Assembly (NCBI GenBank): GCA_011049745.1
Contig: DRHE01000151.1
Span: 1-21,285 of the forward strand
From: Spirochaetales bacterium
GTDB lineage: Bacteria; Spirochaetota; Spirochaetia; SZUA-6; DRHE01
Reading direction: 5' to 3'
Length of the DNA: 21,285 nt
Made by a program: the position numbers and the translations under genes. This document shows, one piece after another, positions 8,112-21,285 of the stretch (positions are counted from its first letter, which is position 1; each line of letters begins with the position of its first letter). The notes beneath the pieces were generated by a model. It made no database searches, was not told the origin of the DNA, and worked only from the letters and a program-made list of their open reading frames with translations.

Positions 8112-9423
8112 TACCGTTATTCTTTTCCTGATCCCGGCAGTGTGCCCGCTTTGGGCGGAGAACTCATATTCAGCGCCTGACTTAAGCTTATTTTTTGATA
8201 TCCATACAGTGGAAGAGAATTACGAATACAGGCAGCGTCTGAAATCGTTGATTACCGCACCGAAAGAGGAGGTCCTTAAAGCCCCTTCCCGAATATTTAC
8301 TCAAGGCCTAACCGCCCAAAGGGTGAAGTTCAGGGTTGAAACCAGGGGGAACTCTTTTTATCTTCTTTTTTTAAATGAGAAAAATCGAGTTTTTCCAATT
8401 GCCGGCAGAGGCAATTATATAATCAAAAGGGGCCTGGAAATGGGAGAATTTAAACAGATAAAGATCTTTTACCGTAATGATCCGGGATCCTTTATCAGGA
8501 TCTTTCCGGCAGGCGAGAGATCGGAAATGGATGTCTTCCTCTTTGGCAAATCCGTCTATAACAAGACTATTCTGCCCCTGCCGCTGGAAAATTTCTTAAC
8601 TCTGTCCTTTTCCAGGGTAATAGCCCTTTCCGGCTCGGTGTTGAAGTGGCCGCTTTTACTTATGCGCGGTGATAGAGAGCTTGACCGCCGGATAGAGGAT
8701 ATTATATCCCTTCTCCGGGCAAGGCTCCCCTTTCTTGAAGATACTGATGATGGGGCCCAGGATTCAGAAGGAAGTTTTGTTCTTATAAAGAATGGTGTAA
8801 AACAGGAAGATGCGGTTAACGGCGGCTTTAATTGTTCCGGCTTTACCAAATGGATAACCGATGGCTTCTATTATCCGCTTACCGGCAGCTACCTGGATAT
8901 TGAGAGGCTGAAGGTAAAGCACCTGGATTTTCGTGGAAACCGCTGGAGCCTGCCGTACGAAGAGGAACGGGATCCTTACTTCGGCCTGGATTGGTCAAGG
9001 AATTTAGCAGTTAACCTCATCACGGCCCAATCCGGAGCGAAGGAGCAGCAAAGCCCAGTAGACCCGGAGAGCGCTGACTTAAGACGTGTTGATTTTTTTT
9101 CTTATATTGAAGATGTGGGCTATCCTGTAGCTGATCTGGAAACCCTGCTTTTTGCAGCTGCTTTCCGAAATCCGGGTATTGTTTACCTGGGATCCATCAA
9201 TTCGGAGTATGGAAAAAAGCCAAGATTACGCCAACATTTTCATATAGTAGTGCTTCTACCCTATTTTACCGCTAACGGTGATTTTAGAATCGCGGTGATG
9301 GAGCGGAATAGTGAAAGCAGTATCGCCTCTTTGATAAAGCGGTACCCGGCTGACTTTATACATTTGGTCCGCCTCGATGCCCGTGGAGTATTCCAGCCGC
9401 CACCTGAAGGTGTGGTTGAATAA
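8089..9423 (+). CDS. Secreted protein of unknown function, possible papain-like cysteine hydrolase
   Basis: A 444-residue protein I do not recognise as a named family. The N-terminus MTRHFLFNTVILFLIPAVC followed by PLWA-EN looks like a signal peptide cut after residue 23, so it is probably periplasmic. Residues 75-175 appear beta-rich. Residues 246-256 read GGFNCSGFTKW, similar to the DCSGF segment around the nucleophile of NlpC/P60 and related papain-fold enzymes (Cys249). A later strand, RQHFHIVVLLPY (381-392), could supply the histidine (His383 or His385), but about 135 residues separate them, more than in classic NlpC/P60. The ATG at 8089 lies 23 bases inside the end of the upstream gene, implying one transcript. 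The enzyme assignment is inference only. Confidence 0.75.
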   Translation: MTRHFLFNTVILFLIPAVCPLWAENSYSAPDLSLFFDIHTVEENYEYRQRLKSLITAPKEEVLKAPSRIFTQGLTAQRVKFRVETRGNSFYLLFLNEKNRVFPIAGRGNYIIKRGLEMGEFKQIKIFYRNDPGSFIRIFPAGERSEMDVFLFGKSVYNKTILPLPLENFLTLSFSRVIALSGSVLKWPLLLMRGDRELDRRIEDIISLLRARLPFLEDTDDGAQDSEGSFVLIKNGVKQEDAVNGGFNCSGFTKWITDGFYYPLTGSYLDIERLKVKHLDFRGNRWSLPYEEERDPYFGLDWSRNLAVNLITAQSGAKEQQSPVDPESADLRRVDFFSYIEDVGYPVADLETLLFAAAFRNPGIVYLGSINSEYGKKPRLRQHFHIVVLLPYFTANGDFRIAVMERNSESSIASLIKRYPADFIHLVRLDARGVFQPPPEGVVE

Positions 9424-9442
9424 AGGCTGATAATTCTATATT
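9416..9442 (+). promoter_or_regulatory. Possible promoter of the HAD phosphatase gene
   Basis: TTGAAT (9416-9421) and TATATT (9437-9442) are separated by 15 bases, shorter than ideal, so this is a weak call. If used, transcription would start around 9449-9451, only 4-6 bases before the ATG at 9455, which also lacks a Shine-Dalgarno. Confidence 0.35.
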
Positions 9443-9454
9443 CTTTACCACAAT

Positions 9455-10108
9455 ATGGCGGTTAAAGCGGTAGCCTTTGATCTTGACGGCACCTTCTATC
9501 CCTATTCACGCATGTTCTCTATCTCTATTTTCCTGGCCTTATGTCATCCCTGGTTTCTCTTTCAGTTTTCCCGGGTTCGAAAAGAGATACGCTCAATTCG
9601 CCCGGTTGATAATTTCAGAGAGCTTCAGGCGGAACTTCTGGCAGAGCGTTTAGCTATTACCCGGGAGAGTGCTAAAAAAGCGATCGAACGAATTATTTAT
9701 GATAAATTTGAGAATCTTTTCCGTTTTATGAAACCATTCCCTCACTTGACGGTGACCCTGGAAGAGCTTAAAGGCGCGGGATACAAGCTGGCTGTACTCT
9801 CTGATTTTCCTGTAAAGCGTAAATTGAGTTACCTGGGATTGGCTGGATTGTGGGACTATACCCTTTCTTCTGAAGAAACAAATTATTTGAAACCCAATAG
9901 AGAGCCATTCCTGAAAATTGTTGAAACACTGAAGGTTGATCCCGGGGAAATACTTTTTGTCGGGGACAGGTACCATTATGATGTTGTCGGCGCTCGCCAG
10001 GTTGGTATGAAAACAGCTCATTTTACCCGTATTGCCGAAGCAAATGGGCTGGCGGATTTTACTTTTAACAGTTATAAAGATTTTTTTGAATTGGTGAATA
10101 ATATTTAA
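9455..10108 (+). CDS. HAD-family hydrolase (phosphatase)
   Basis: A 217-residue haloacid dehalogenase-type phosphohydrolase. All four motifs are present: AFDLDGTFYP with nucleophile Asp9 and acid/base Asp11, LSDFP (S116-D117), YLKPNREPF with Lys146, and FVGDRYHYDVVGARQVGM with Asp171 and Asp176. A helical cap of about 75 residues lies between motifs I and II, the C1 class as in phosphoglycolate phosphatase-like proteins. The substrate cannot be predicted. The N-terminus begins four residues before the first strand, supporting ATG 9455. No Shine-Dalgarno is seen. It lies 31 bases after the secreted-protein gene. Confidence 0.88.
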   Translation: MAVKAVAFDLDGTFYPYSRMFSISIFLALCHPWFLFQFSRVRKEIRSIRPVDNFRELQAELLAERLAITRESAKKAIERIIYDKFENLFRFMKPFPHLTVTLEELKGAGYKLAVLSDFPVKRKLSYLGLAGLWDYTLSSEETNYLKPNREPFLKIVETLKVDPGEILFVGDRYHYDVVGARQVGMKTAHFTRIAEANGLADFTFNSYKDFFELVNNI

Positions 10109-10113
10109 TATAA

Positions 10114-10142
10114 TTGACAACCGCGGTTGTGCGGGTTAGAAT
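10114..10142 (+). promoter_or_regulatory. Sigma70-type promoter of the coiled-coil gene
   Basis: TTGACA (10114-10119), a 17-base spacer and TAGAAT (10137-10142) make a strong promoter starting six bases after the HAD stop codon. The expected start point is near 10149, giving a leader of about 29 bases that contains the 12-G tract. Confidence 0.7.
10117..10130. promoter_or_regulatory. 14-bp perfect palindrome inside the promoter (candidate operator)
   Basis: ACAACCGCGGTTGT is its own reverse complement. It overlaps the last three bases of the -35 box and fills most of the spacer, where a bound dimeric repressor or MerR-type activator would control the promoter. No matching factor can be named from the sequence. 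Confidence 0.5.
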
Positions 10143-10162
10143 ATTATAAAGCTATTGTGCGT

Positions 10163-10174
10163 GGGGGGGGGGGG
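10163..10174 (+). repeat. Poly-G tract (12 G) at the ribosome binding position
   Basis: Twelve consecutive G residues end three bases before the ATG at 10178. They replace the Shine-Dalgarno of the coiled-coil gene and are the longest homopolymer in the window; other G runs are seven or shorter and lie inside genes. Such tracts change length by slipped-strand mispairing. The count should be treated as uncertain because sequencing also errs in such tracts. Confidence 0.9.
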
Positions 10175-10177
10175 ATA

Positions 10178-12943
10178 ATGTTTTTCTCATTTGGTAACCT
10201 TCTTACCGTCCTTATCGTTTTCATAATTCTTGTTATCTACAGACAGTTGGACCGGAACAACCGCTCATTGGAGAAGGTCAAACGGTATTCAGATCATGTT
10301 ATAAAGAATATACAAGGGTTTGTTGATGACAAGACTGCCGAACTGCGCGATATATCCATAGAATTGCAGGTTAATCTGAAAACCGGCAAAGAGATCTTGA
10401 ATAAGATAAGGGGCGTTGAGCAAGGACTTAAACAGAGGGCCGGCGATATCGACAGTATCGGGAAACGAATATCCGACTATGACAGGGTGCTTAAAGATCT
10501 TATAGACATGACCGCCAGGGTGGAAAATAACTTAAAAGGCATTCAAAGTGAGTCCCGTTTTGTAGATAACGTGGGCAGGCAGATAAAGGAGGCGGTAGCT
10601 AAAATAGCTGCAATAGAGAAATCTATTCCGGTAATAGAGGCTAATTTTGTCGAAAGCGCCAGGCAGCATCTTAACACACTGAAAGAAGAGGCTGTGAGCG
10701 ATATGCAGGACAGGGTGAATTCTATATCAGCCGAGGTAACTGAGGCTTTAGAGCAGGTCAAAGACTTCTCAACCTATATTACCCGTTTAGAGGGAAGGAG
10801 CGAAGCCCTGGAGAATGAAACTATAGAATCGCTTGAGGATATTTTCAACAATTACGAGTTAAAGGCGCAGGGTAAAGTTAACAGCCACCTGGAGAAGTTC
10901 ACCTTAAATTTGAATACCATGGTTGTCGAAGCAGAAAAAAGGATCAAAGAACAGGAACTGGTAATGGCAGAAGCGGCTAAAAAAGGAGAGGCTCTGGAGC
11001 ATCAGATATTTATTGCACTTAAAGAAAAGATTTACAGCGATGCCCGGCAGGTAAAGGAACACTGTAAAATTCTGGAAGGTAATCTCTCAGAGGCAAGGAG
11101 CATTGAGCAGGAATTGAATTCCCGCATTGCCGGTTTTACCGGTGATCTGGAAGAGTTTAAAGTCACTTTCTCCCAAAGCATGGAAAAACTCGGTAAAGAG
11201 CTGGAGGTCAGGGTCTTTGAGCAAATTGAACACCGGCTGGGAGATTATGAAAGTGATGTTGATTACCGATTCAAGAAACTTGAAGATGTGCATATCGATA
11301 TCGAAGCTATGGAGAAGAATCTCCGCCAGGTAATGGGAAAAATGTCTCTCGCTTTGAAAAAGGATTTCGAAGCGGCTTCCCACTCTCTGGAGGAAGAGGG
11401 TCAGAAAGAAAGTGAAAAGGCGGATGAAAGATTCAAGATATTGAAAGGGGAGATGAAAGAGCTGGAAGAGGAGCTGGCCGAATTGAAATTAAGAGCATAT
11501 CAGACAGTTTCTGAACAGCTTCAAGTATTTGAAGATGATTTTTTCAAAGGTTTGAAAAAGAAAAACCTTGATATGGAAGAGCGGCTGCGGGAATGGCAGC
11601 GGAGTATGGATAGCAGGATTTCAGAGATAGCTCAAACTCAAGTATCTGAAAGAGAGGAGGCTGAAAAGACAATCCTTGATCAGTTGCGTAAGCAGTATGA
11701 GGCAAGCAGGGCGGAGGTTGGTATCTGGCAGACAGAACTCAAACAGCAGTTCACTGAAGCAGAATCTGAGATTGAAGCAAAGATAAAGGGTTTTCAGAGT
11801 GGATCTGAATCCACCATTGAAACTATCCGTAATTCCTTTAACAGCGAGCGTGATGATCTGGTGCTTTCAACTAAAGTGGAAAGGGCGGAATTGAAACTAT
11901 CATTAAAGGAAATAGCAGCTGAAACCCGTAAATTGCAGAAAGAGCTGCAGGAAAAGACGGAAACCGCTACGAGAGATTTTCAGGGAAAGCTGAATGTTTT
12001 TAGCGCTGATTTCAAAAGCAGCATGCGTGAGCTGGGGGGGAATCTGAGTGATATGGACAAACGGCTCAAAGATTTCACCTCTCAGACAGGAATATTTGAG
12101 CGCGCTGATACCCTCAAGTTATCTTTAGAGGCAAAGATTGAGGAGATGAAGATCGAACTGAATGATTTAAAGGAACAGCGCAAAGATATAACTGAAACAC
12201 GCAAGCAGCTCTTGAATACAAAAAGACTGGCTGAAGATATTCAGGGCAGGGTTGCCCGCTTCATTTCTGAACGCAGAAGAATTGAAGATATGGATTCCAA
12301 CTTTAAAAAACTCTTAACAATATCCACTGATGTAAACTCTCGGATTGAAGCAGTGCACTCCAGCCAGGATAGTCTGCAGGAAATTCAGGCCAGAATACGT
12401 GAGCTGGAAAATCTGGAAAAAGCAATGGAAAATCGTTATGAGCGCCTGGAAAAGAAGAAGGCTATTTTAGAGGTTACCACTGAGGGAGTGGATAAGAATT
12501 TTCAGATGCTGGGAACCCTCGAAAAGGGTTTGAAGGAATCATCTTCTGAATTGATGGCTTTAAAGCAGGAAATTGAAATCCTGTCCACCAATAAAGAGAA
12601 AGCCGATGCTGTGGTGGATAAACTGAATAATCTGGATGATGTGCTCACTCATCTGGATGATCGTATCAAAAAATTCGAGACTTCGCGTGATTGGTTGGCG
12701 CGCACGGAAACCCGCTTTGAAAAGGTAAGCAGGGATGCACAGGAGCAGGTTCAGCTTCTACAGAGTATATTAAAGGCGCAGAGCAGCGGAAAGGAAAATG
12801 ATAAGGGTGCTCCGCCTCTAAGCCAGAGAGAGACGGTAATTAAGCTGGCCCGGCATGGCTGGTCAGCCATGGAAATCGCAAAACAGACCAAATTGAGCAG
12901 GGGCGAAGTTGAATTGATCCTTGAATTAGCGCCAAGGGGTTAG
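10178..12943 (+). CDS. Membrane-anchored giant coiled-coil protein (SpiroCoCo type)
   Basis: A 921-residue protein with one N-terminal membrane helix (about residues 5-22, FGNLLTVLIVFIILVIY), then almost 850 residues of charged, Glu/Lys-rich heptad sequence with no glycine- or proline-rich breaks. The C-terminal 40 residues form a small helix-turn-helix-like unit (ETVIKLARHGWSAMEIAKQT, KLSRGEVELILELA). This architecture matches the coiled-coil proteins conserved in spirochaetes; an envelope-scaffold, cell-shape or chromosome-linking role is inferred, not shown. ATG 10178 is chosen because the membrane helix begins at once and the promoter lies at 10114-10142; the in-frame TTG at 10127 would lie upstream of the -10 box. 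The start is preceded by the 12-G tract. It runs into pgi, whose ribosome binding site overlaps its stop codon. Confidence 0.88.
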   Translation: MFFSFGNLLTVLIVFIILVIYRQLDRNNRSLEKVKRYSDHVIKNIQGFVDDKTAELRDISIELQVNLKTGKEILNKIRGVEQGLKQRAGDIDSIGKRISDYDRVLKDLIDMTARVENNLKGIQSESRFVDNVGRQIKEAVAKIAAIEKSIPVIEANFVESARQHLNTLKEEAVSDMQDRVNSISAEVTEALEQVKDFSTYITRLEGRSEALENETIESLEDIFNNYELKAQGKVNSHLEKFTLNLNTMVVEAEKRIKEQELVMAEAAKKGEALEHQIFIALKEKIYSDARQVKEHCKILEGNLSEARSIEQELNSRIAGFTGDLEEFKVTFSQSMEKLGKELEVRVFEQIEHRLGDYESDVDYRFKKLEDVHIDIEAMEKNLRQVMGKMSLALKKDFEAASHSLEEEGQKESEKADERFKILKGEMKELEEELAELKLRAYQTVSEQLQVFEDDFFKGLKKKNLDMEERLREWQRSMDSRISEIAQTQVSEREEAEKTILDQLRKQYEASRAEVGIWQTELKQQFTEAESEIEAKIKGFQSGSESTIETIRNSFNSERDDLVLSTKVERAELKLSLKEIAAETRKLQKELQEKTETATRDFQGKLNVFSADFKSSMRELGGNLSDMDKRLKDFTSQTGIFERADTLKLSLEAKIEEMKIELNDLKEQRKDITETRKQLLNTKRLAEDIQGRVARFISERRRIEDMDSNFKKLLTISTDVNSRIEAVHSSQDSLQEIQARIRELENLEKAMENRYERLEKKKAILEVTTEGVDKNFQMLGTLEKGLKESSSELMALKQEIEILSTNKEKADAVVDKLNNLDDVLTHLDDRIKKFETSRDWLARTETRFEKVSRDAQEQVQLLQSILKAQSSGKENDKGAPPLSQRETVIKLARHGWSAMEIAKQTKLSRGEVELILELAPRG

Positions 12944-12953
12944 GAGCTATAGA

Positions 12954-14309
12954 ATGTCCATTACTATTGATTACAGCCGTATGGTGCCGGCTGCAGATCC
13001 GGAGAAAGTTAAAGACTATGCCGGTAAGATCGCGGCAATTGATGAGACGCTTAAGAATAAACGGGCGGCAGGAGATCTGCCTTTTTATGATCTGCCTTAC
13101 CGGAATACCGCTGATATTGAAGGTTATGCGGCGGGGATAAGGGGCAGGTTTAAAAACCTGGTGGTACTGGGAATCGGTGGTTCCGCCCTGGGGCTGATCG
13201 CCTTAAATTCTTCCTTAAGGAGTCCTTACCGGGATGCTGTACTTGATCCTGAGCTATATGTACTGGATAATATCGATCCGGAAAGGCTCTACCGGGTAAT
13301 GCAAAAGCTTGATCCAGCTGAAACCCTGGTAAATGTGATTACCAAATCGGGAAGCACAGCGGAAACCATGGCCTCATTCCTGATATTCCGTAAGTGGTTA
13401 ATTGATGGTGTTGGTGAAAATGGTTATCGGGATAGATTAGTAGTTACCACTGCCAGGGATTCAGGCTCGTTGCGGCAGATAGCCGATAAAGAGGGGCTGG
13501 TCAGTTTTGAGGTGCCCGAGGGTGTGGGGGGAAGATTTTCAGTGCTGACACCGGTGGGGCTGCTCCCCGCTGCTTTGATCGGGATCGATATTAAGGCTCT
13601 GCTAGCCGGCGCTGCGGCTATGGATAAACGCCTTCTAAACTCCACCCTCTTAAAGAATCCCGCTTATCTCGGGGCGGTAATGCATTATCTTGCTTATCTC
13701 TCCGGTCGTTGTATTTCGGTGATGTTCGCTTACGGTGACCGGTTATTAGATCTCGCTGACTGGTATCGCCAGCTTTGGGCAGAGAGTCTGGGAAAGCGTT
13801 ACGACCTCAATGGAATAGCTGTAAACGTGGGGCCGACCCCGGTAAAGGCTCTGGGGGTAACTGATCAGCATTCCCAGGTTCAGCTTTATAAAGAGGGGCC
13901 CGATGACAAGGTTTACACTTTTCTAAAGGCAGAGAACTTTGAGAATACTATTGAAATTCCCAGGGCTTTTGAGGGCAACGAGGCTGTCTTCTATCTGGGA
14001 GGCCACACTATAAATGAGCTTTTCAATGTTGAAGAAATGGCTACCGAAGTAGCTTTGGTCAAGGAAAAGAGGCCTTTGACAGCTATAAGTTTTTCAAAGG
14101 TAACCCCTGATGAAGTCGGCGAGTTTTTTTATTTTTTTGAGGTTCAGACAGTGGCAATTGGGGCGCTTTTTGGTATTGATCCCCTGGATCAGCCCGGAGT
14201 AGAGGAGGGTAAGCACTTTGCCTATGGGCTGTTAGGCCGATCCGGATTTGAGGATAAAAAGAAGGAATTTGCCTCTTTTACCACTGGCGATAAAGCGTTA
14301 ATATTTTAA
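12954..14309 (+). CDS. pgi: Glucose-6-phosphate isomerase
   Basis: Interconverts glucose 6-phosphate and fructose 6-phosphate in glycolysis. The 451 residues match the shorter bacterial form. Motifs seen are VVLGIGGSALG (70-80), the sugar-phosphate SIS loop ITKSGSTAET (129-138), VGGRFSVLTPVGLLPA (191-206), LWAESLGKR with Glu277, GVTDQHSQ with His306, and GVEEGKHFAYGLLG with Lys420, which together give the expected catalytic residues. An AGGAG ribosome binding site lies eight bases before ATG 12954 and overlaps the stop of the coiled-coil gene, so pgi is probably read from the same transcript; if so, its mRNA would come from the promoter at 10114-10142. Confidence 0.96.
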   Translation: MSITIDYSRMVPAADPEKVKDYAGKIAAIDETLKNKRAAGDLPFYDLPYRNTADIEGYAAGIRGRFKNLVVLGIGGSALGLIALNSSLRSPYRDAVLDPELYVLDNIDPERLYRVMQKLDPAETLVNVITKSGSTAETMASFLIFRKWLIDGVGENGYRDRLVVTTARDSGSLRQIADKEGLVSFEVPEGVGGRFSVLTPVGLLPAALIGIDIKALLAGAAAMDKRLLNSTLLKNPAYLGAVMHYLAYLSGRCISVMFAYGDRLLDLADWYRQLWAESLGKRYDLNGIAVNVGPTPVKALGVTDQHSQVQLYKEGPDDKVYTFLKAENFENTIEIPRAFEGNEAVFYLGGHTINELFNVEEMATEVALVKEKRPLTAISFSKVTPDEVGEFFYFFEVQTVAIGALFGIDPLDQPGVEEGKHFAYGLLGRSGFEDKKKEFASFTTGDKALIF

Positions 14310-20119: not shown

Positions 20120-20668
20120 TCACCCACACGATGCTGGAGCATCGAAGGGCTCCAAACCTAGATCATCAAGAATGAGTAGATCCTGCTTTTGGATCCTGGT
20201 AAGCTCTCTCAGATAGCTCCCATCAGCTCTGGCGAGCTTCAGGCGCTTAAAGAGCTTTGAACAGGAGAAATAACCCGTTTTGAAACCATACATGCAGCCC
20301 TGATGTCCCAGAGCCTGTGCAAGGAATGATTTTCCCGCGCCAGTGGGCCCTGTTAGAAGAACAATTTGATGACGTTCGATCCAGCTTGAATCTGAAAGCC
20401 GCAGCAGCATGTTCTTGTCAAGGTTTCTAGGCAGCCCAAAATCAATCTCCTCAAAGGAGGCAGAGTAGCGAAACCGAGCTGCTTTGATCAGCCGCTGAAT
20501 TTTGCGATTGTGCCGGTCCTCCCACTCTGTATCCACCAGATGGCTCAAGAGCTCATCTGGGGTGAATGAATGCTTCACTCCAGTCTCCATGGTGGCCCGG
20601 AAGGCCCTGGCCATCCCGTGAAGCCTCATGTTTTCCAGCTTATTGATTGTTGCCTGGTTATTGTTCAT
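20120..20668 (-). pseudogene. istB: Truncated IS21-family helper ATPase IstB
   Basis: IstB is the AAA+ ATPase that works with transposase IstA in IS21-type elements. The first about 179 residues are good: the IstB N-terminal helix part (MNNNQATINKLENMRLHGMA, then the SASFEEIDF segment), Walker A GPTGAGKS (107-114) and Walker B LLILDDLGLEP (164-174). After FDAPA the reading leaves the family and stops at SCG-stop, total 182 residues instead of about 245-250. The missing part includes sensor and arginine-finger regions, so it is probably inactive. An AGGAG ribosome binding site (20676-20680 on the reverse strand) precedes the ATG. The break is near 20131, at a 16-bp inverted repeat. Confidence 0.88.
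20129..20144. repeat. Inverted repeat at the istB break point
   Basis: CGATGCT-GG-AGCATCG, a perfect 7-bp inverted repeat with two central bases, lies where istB homology ends. It may mark the deletion junction, or part of it may simply be istB codons. Confidence 0.6.
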
Positions 20669-20696
20669 ACAAATTCTCCTCTTTCTTTCTTAGATT

Positions 20697-21285
20697 TTAA
20701 TTGTAGTACTTGCTGCCCCGGATGTTTTCATGATCCGTGATGGTCGAGATCAGCTCCAGTTGCGGTTGCTTTTCTTCTTCCATGCCCAGCTTTATCATAG
20801 TTTCTATCCGCTTTAATGAGCAGGTTCCAAACTTATTCGCCTTCCTACAGGCCTTATTCAGCCTCTTATCCCCATATTTCCTGGCCATGCTCAAAATACC
20901 CATACATACCTTGAAGGCCTGCTCAGGATGTTTCCGGCTTTTAATCACATTCTCAATCACCTGATCAACTTCTTCCCCGATTGATTTTGCCCACCTGTGT
21001 ATTCTCTCAGGGTTCCACTGTGAATAAAATCGATGATTGGAAGGCATATGCTCAGGAATCGTTGAGTATCCATTCGGTGTGCGGTCACGTTTGTGCTGGC
21101 CTACCCGCATGTTGTCGTAATACAGCGCCACAATCCTGTCATCGTAGACCATCCTCACTTTGGTCTTTGGCTTTTTCCGATACAGGTAGTGAGGTACGCT
21201 GTAGTAATGCAGGTCTTCCCGCAATTCTACATGATAGTTGAACTGAACATTCCTCCAGATAGTCGTTTTCATCGGATACCGTTCA
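20697..21285 (-). CDS. istA: IS21-family transposase IstA, C-terminal part (5' end outside window)
   Basis: About 195 residues of the C-terminal part are visible, and the frame stays open to the window edge (ERYP precedes the first visible ATG at 21272). The section ERYPMKTTIW, VQFNYHVELREDLHYYSVPH, a beta-rich part with PKTKVRMVYDDRIVALYYDN, PNGYSTIPEHMPSNHRFYSQ and a helical end with SRKHPEQAFKVCMGILSMAR is typical of IstA after its DDE catalytic core. The core itself lies outside the window, so catalytic residues cannot be checked. The gene ends 28 bases before istB. Confidence 0.9.
   Translation of the reverse strand, partial: ERYPMKTTIWRNVQFNYHVELREDLHYYSVPHYLYRKKPKTKVRMVYDDRIVALYYDNMRVGQHKRDRTPNGYSTIPEHMPSNHRFYSQWNPERIHRWAKSIGEEVDQVIENVIKSRKHPEQAFKVCMGILSMARKYGDKRLNKACRKANKFGTCSLKRIETMIKLGMEEEKQPQLELISTITDHENIRGSKYYN

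Follow-up and report, generated by a model that had tools for sequence, protein, structure and literature searches.

Poly-G tracts near gene starts are already known, and so are translational effects of poly-G in 5' untranslated regions (5'UTRs). In Treponema pallidum, tp0381 and tp0986 have poly-G listed at position -7 from their annotated starts, with up to ten tract lengths reported for tp0381 and little or no variation for tp0986 (PMC7864442). Poly-G also lies near the starts of tprE/G/J, tprL, tp0126 and porA, for which length-dependent expression has been reported; these tracts are described as located 5' of the transcript start, over the -10 element or between -35 and -10, and as acting on transcription. 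One extra G in a homopolymer of the espR 5'UTR of Mycobacterium tuberculosis is reported to raise translation, the effect being explained by a folding model (PMC11898584). Among ribosome binding sites (RBSs), a pure-G Shine-Dalgarno-like stretch, CGGGGG, is in use in Pseudomonas fluorescens prfB (PMC13245932), and in Escherichia coli an 18-base poly-G fell far short of the efficiency of the wild-type RBS, both in vitro and in vivo (PMC3310771). Here we analyzed a tract of twelve G residues in a stretch of 21,285 nucleotides from a Spirochaetales bacterium (contig DRHE01000151.1, hereafter the window), which directly precedes a gene for a coiled-coil protein of the SpiroCoCo family. Judging from the leaders of related genes, this tract is very probably the RBS of the SpiroCoCo gene, and it looks to be derived from a G-rich Shine-Dalgarno sequence that turned into a homopolymer.

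The SpiroCoCo tract resembles those of tp0381 and tp0986 in being poly-G just 5' of an annotated start in a spirochaete, but the latter belong to genes of a pathogen and are not tied to a Shine-Dalgarno sequence in the sections of PMC7864442 considered. With the tpr, tp0126 and porA tracts it shares the position near a gene start, whereas it lies 3' of the inferred transcript start. Like the espR tract it is a 5'-leader homopolymer; unlike it, the SpiroCoCo tract would itself be the Shine-Dalgarno sequence. It can also be set beside the extended G-rich Shine-Dalgarno GGGAGGGGA, a sequence mostly complementary to the 16S 3' end of relatives, but it differs in being pure G, in forming a G.U pair within its core, in allowing several registers and in being prone to slippage. 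A literature search of titles and abstract beginnings returned nothing on a poly-G Shine-Dalgarno of a SpiroCoCo gene, no paper for the term "SpiroCoCo", and no account of a retained Shine-Dalgarno sequence repeatedly becoming homopolymeric.

The tract and its gene

The features at the center of this analysis are as follows.

10163 to 10174, + strand: twelve-G tract, probably the homopolymer form of the SpiroCoCo gene's G-rich (GGGAGGGG-type) Shine-Dalgarno, by position and relatives' leaders
10175 to 10177, + strand: ATA spacer, holding the 3' end of the tract three bases from the start codon
10178 to 12943, + strand: gene for a SpiroCoCo-family coiled-coil protein of 921 aa, by NCBIfam and Pfam profile matches

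An earlier sequence-only reading of the window had described twelve G, then ATA, then the ATG of a 921-residue protein, and exactly this order is present at 10163–10180, with the open reading frame (ORF) running from the ATG (10178–10180) to 12943. The protein scored 190.9 bits against NF047514 (cut-off 75) and 295.3 bits against NF047515 (cut-off 125), the models of the N- and C-terminal SpiroCoCo domains, and is thus a member of this family. The family match has no function attached to it, and the structural envelope role given in the earlier reading is putative. Its N-terminal stretch also exceeded the cut-off of the LA_3659 family NF047516 (36), and Pfam DUF6115 matched with 30.7 bits (cut-off 27). 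The same reading had noted no other Shine-Dalgarno sequence, and indeed no second Shine-Dalgarno-like stretch occurs in the 30 bases 5' of the ATG at 10178. It had further placed the tract in the ribosome-binding position and judged it long enough to slip; the position agrees with our analysis, and a homopolymer of 12 G is, as a matter of general knowledge, long enough for slippage.

In the assembly of the window's genome (2,418,325 bases, 73% complete), 13 separate runs of at least nine G were found, namely one of 12, three of 10 and nine of 9, so that the SpiroCoCo tract is the longest G run of the assembly. The number of G8 matches observed in the window was reached by one of 100 dinucleotide-preserving shuffles. 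The + strand of the window, which carries most of the main genes, holds 16 runs of at least five G versus one run of C.

G-rich leaders in the same order

The search of the same order returned 26 genomes, 23 with a match to the SpiroCoCo N-terminus and three without. Leaders were readable in 22 of these genomes, that of the sister species being lost to a contig end; two loci (L116 and L119), inspected manually, enter the order table only. The motif GGGAGGGG stands directly 5' of the start codon in 20/22 leaders, and the remaining two are pure G: the window, with 12 G, and a genome of the same family (G003), with 8 G. One genome (G013) holds a second N-terminal SpiroCoCo piece (C423:15-146, L120).

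Comparison across genomes, which the sequence-only reading had proposed, supports it in that tract lengths differ by species and gives it no support in that most relatives carry GGGAG or GGGAGGGG with no homopolymer. The tract therefore has the look of a derived Shine-Dalgarno sequence rather than of a conserved switch.

Leaders across the class

In the whole class a SpiroCoCo match was found in 134 of 168 genomes; the lowest-scoring of these genomes and part of the remaining ones were not fetched. We assembled 185 loci, comprising 24 from the order search, 21 new and a further 60 from the class, and the best 80 of 91 from named assemblies. Many of the last come from genomes already in the set, and leaders identical in their last 30 bases were therefore counted once, giving 135 distinct leaders from 170 of the 185 loci. 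No start could be read by script in twelve (L098, L116, L119, L120, L161, L238, L287, L297, L303, L305, L310 and L312), and three (L288, L291 and L307) were removed by hand; CTGGGAG was seen in L161, which was left out of the counts.

GGGAG is present in 93 of the 135 leaders, GGAG in 106 and GGGAGGGG in 34. A run of at least seven G occurs in 15 leaders (7 G in five, 8 G in seven, 9 G in two and 12 G in one), the single case of 12 G, the longest of all, being the window. The five 7-G leaders are all from one genus, and another clade has 8 and 9 G. A quick tree was built from the 90 proteins that were long enough, without bootstrap and with the window's row among long branches that meet (a warning of the tool); on it, pure G needs four changes, and the starred branches force four. 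Five further pure-G leaders (families f17, f33 and f41) are not on this tree. Because of these four changes and the five leaders off the tree, the homopolymers probably evolved from the GGGAG type on several occasions. The motif CTGGGAG, longer than a plain Shine-Dalgarno, is common to many class leaders and recurs across families.

Poly-G before other start codons

A second locus of the window's genome (C143:70-87, L050) reads G10-TATAA-ATG 5' of an ORF of 177 aa. Its ortholog in the sister species G001 (85% identity) has GGGGGGAGGGGAA-ATG, and the inner A is missing in the copy of the window's genome. This gene appears to be a second case of the same pure-G conversion relative to the sister species; it was matched in only 3/26 order genomes, and the comparison is with the sister alone. 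The adjoining ORF reads like mutS.

Throughout the window's genome, G7 followed by ATG within 3–9 bases gave 21 hits, compared with 5 in the reversed control, and these hits come from 11 contigs. Four of them (C96, C143, C151 and C373) precede an ORF of more than 100 aa, and two of the four, C143 and C151, were compared with relatives. The idea of many poly-G ribosome sites in this genome was dropped, as the 21 hits fall on 11 contigs and four stand before such an ORF. Ahead of an ATG, GGGAGGGG does not exceed background in the window's genome (6 versus 6 in the control), but it is enriched in the sister (21 versus 4) and in G003 (31 versus 7). It exceeds the control in many genomes of the order, so this site is not unique to the SpiroCoCo gene.

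Promoter and 5' leader

Two further features are predicted upstream of the start codon.

10114 to 10142, + strand: promoter-like TTGACA-17-TAGAAT, 11 of 12 consensus matches, predicted and not mapped
10149 to 10177, + strand: 5' leader of 29 bases, inferred from the -10 position

The transcript would start near 10149, which agrees with the 29-base leader in which the sequence-only reading had placed the tract. The same scan gave a second, weaker promoter-like site, TTGAAT-17-TATAAT, at 10086–10114 (10/12 matches). Three promoter-like sites in the scanned stretch are not clearly above the 1.3 (sd 1.1) in shuffles, and from the window sequence alone the promoter call is weak. The relatives' leaders appear to strengthen it: among the 20 order leaders scanned, with no shuffle control, the best-scoring promoter-like site has TTGACA in 17, and the -10 is located 24–35 bases 5' of the ATG in 15. 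Because the promoter-like site 10114–10142 lies upstream, the most likely place of the tract is within the transcribed leader and not in the promoter hexamers. A promoter-spacing switch of the porA/tp0126 type was considered and rejected, the predicted -35/-10 being at 10114–10142 and the tract at 10163–10174.

Pairing with 16S rRNA and the proposed origin

The tract shows the marks of a Shine-Dalgarno sequence, namely modelled 16S complementarity, a position just 5' of the start and a G-rich site in orthologs. Modelled against a generic 16S end, the leader paired with -16.3 kcal/mol at 12–16 G, -15.5 at 10 and -13.0 at 8–9, and the seven relatives' own leaders that were computed gave -9.8 to -15.9 kcal/mol. 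The 16S 3' end GGATCACCTCCTTTCT was found exactly in G003 and G007. Favoured Shine-Dalgarno spacing is 5–9 bases, and in any tract of at least seven G a five-G core can be placed at least 5 nt from the ATG.

We propose that the ancestral site was a G-rich Shine-Dalgarno of the GGGAGGGGA type, as retained by the SpiroCoCo gene in relatives, that its inner A was lost, and that the tract then grew by slippage. The tract would pair with CCUCC of the 16S rRNA in any of several registers, with G.U at the central U, and small changes of length would have little effect through pairing or spacing. Because the 3' end is anchored, tracts of at least 7 G offer suitable registers and pairing is flat from 12 G, a difference of plus or minus 2 G around 12 should matter little in these models. 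With more than about 10 G, translation would probably fall below that from the ancestral site; at 12 G we expect it to be weaker because of the change in quadruplex folding described below and the poor performance of the 18-base poly-G. The tract is probably slippage-prone, and probably length-polymorphic in the population. A drift product of small cost is a likelier reading than use as a switch.

Such an origin suggests a route to slippage-prone tracts, starting from a strong G-rich Shine-Dalgarno whose single A is lost. Retention of the GGGAG leader by SpiroCoCo genes suggests that the translation of this little-studied spirochaete protein is under constraint, and if tract length does set output, a protein outside the known surface antigens would come under stochastic control.

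In favour of this reading, the dnaK leaders of 22 genomes of the order (20 shared with the 22 of the SpiroCoCo set) contain GGGAG in 0/22 and GGAG in 18/22, and therefore not every gene has the long G-rich site. Several observations weigh against it. The dnaK comparison is somewhat uneven: likeness to GGGAGG helped to pick the SpiroCoCo starts, those of dnaK were set from a protein motif only, and one dnaK row (G013), which uses an upstream GTG, is probably wrong. The sister species, the only other genome of the same genus, lacks the SpiroCoCo leader in its assembly, and no second genome of the window's own species was found. The 16S end was found in neither the window's genome nor the sister, and in 8/26 genomes when at most one mismatch was allowed. 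One class leader (L265) has a G run followed by AG and was also counted as GGGAG. Poly-G before ATG is not confined to the SpiroCoCo gene, because G8 followed by ATG (2–9 bases, overlapping hits counted) exceeds the control in several relatives (for example 29 versus 3 in G014, 33 versus 9 in G057); the counts in G001 (7 versus 6) and G003 (6 versus 12) show no such excess. Finally, by analogy with the 18-base poly-G, a tract of 12 G may in reality yield little protein despite the strong site of the model.

In the sister assembly, a repeat terminates one contig after the gene for a HAD-family hydrolase, and another contig begins at codon 12 of the SpiroCoCo gene. The repeat begins right after the HAD stop codon (C31:1-227, L065). 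It has six matches in that genome, its own copy included, one of only 45 bases, and three others also lie at contig starts; perhaps it is a mobile element inserted upstream of the SpiroCoCo gene.

Alternative explanations

Our confidence concerns the origin of the tract and its ribosome-binding role; the switch and the G-quadruplex explanations would add to an RBS derived from a G-rich Shine-Dalgarno and do not exclude it. According to the first, slippage changes the number of G and with it ribosome binding or spacing, producing cells with high or low SpiroCoCo. The tract does sit in the ribosome-binding position, its length differs between species (12 in the window, 8 in G003, others elsewhere), and the espR and tp0381 tracts offer precedents for a translational effect and for variation at -7. 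Spacing can hardly be the means, as the earlier reading had supposed, since the 3' end is anchored three bases from the ATG and slippage leaves this distance unchanged, with registers at least 5 nt from the ATG in all tracts of at least 7 G. An effect on binding, which that reading also invoked, finds some support in modelled pairing that is 3.3 kcal/mol weaker at 8–9 G than at 12 G, but not in the flat pairing from 12 G upward. Moreover, most relatives' leaders lack the homopolymer, the 7-G genus has exactly 7 in all five leaders read, and tp0986, also at -7, is reported as minimally or not variable (PMC7864442). We consider such a phase-variable switch doubtful.

The second explanation is that with 11 or more G the window's leader forms a two-layer RNA G-quadruplex that covers the Shine-Dalgarno and lowers translation, 10 or fewer leaving it open. 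RNAfold with the quadruplex option gave -13.2 kcal/mol at 10 G and -28.0 at 11 G, versus -13.8 at 11 G without the option, and the poor 18-base RBS (PMC3310771) would fit. Of the 135 class leaders, 7 hold a quadruplex in their best fold; the window's reaches the lowest energy for the whole fold and is the only one to form entirely within a single G run. However, this gate rests on predicted folding with generic parameters, and the 11-G threshold is specific to the window's leader and no general one: two 8-G leaders (L200 and L207) and four without a long run also fold, using other Gs, and so does the 10-G leader of C143. Quadruplexes 5' of the RBS are also described as raising translation in E. 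coli (PMC11087576). The pairing and folding models differ in the direction of the length effect, and we find the gate similarly doubtful. An extension of it, in which slippage across about 11 G folds and unfolds the quadruplex and sets reversible high or low SpiroCoCo levels, with the G-rich leader making lineages re-enter this state, seems unlikely.

It is quite unlikely that the twelve-G tract is an assembly artefact, with a true length other than 12. In favour, of the 13 runs of at least nine G, 4 are found no more than 130 bases from a contig end (P 0.003, with a cut-off chosen post hoc), and the sister's contig ends 37 bases 3' of the homologous tract position. Such runs near contig ends could reflect either difficult sequencing of G runs or genuine mixtures of lengths, and both have been reported as problems in a Bifidobacterium study (PMC9187656). 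Against it, the contig extends more than 10 kb beyond the tract on both sides and related G-rich leaders exist independently. The length of 12 is that of an assembly taken without reads, and the exact number may be off.

A reading-frame switch, with a start at TTG 10127 and the tract coding as four Gly codons, is extremely improbable: the frame is open 5' to this TTG and the weaker site at 10086–10114 would put it in the transcript, but it lies inside the better promoter-like site, the conserved ATG directly follows the G-rich site, and 10/14 of the other order leaders printed have an in-frame stop shortly 5' of that ATG. A frameshift-type switch needs a tract inside the reading frame, and the relatives' upstream in-frame stops place it outside.

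Neighbouring genes and other observations

The genes on either side of the SpiroCoCo gene are the following.

9455 to 10108, + strand: HAD-family hydrolase gene, immediately 5' of the SpiroCoCo gene (Pfam PF00702, E 3.7e-20)
12954 to 14309, + strand: pgi, 10 bases 3' of the SpiroCoCo gene (Pfam PF00342, E 2.8e-42)

The DNA match of G003 spans 9778–10293 of the window and extends into the HAD gene. We infer that pgi is co-transcribed with the SpiroCoCo gene; it has its own Shine-Dalgarno-like AGGAG. A phage origin of the tract region was rejected, as 9400–10800 of the window had no match in the phage collection by megablast. On the minus strand, two ORFs at 20120–21284, which extend off the contig end, resemble a transposase pair of the IS21 type.
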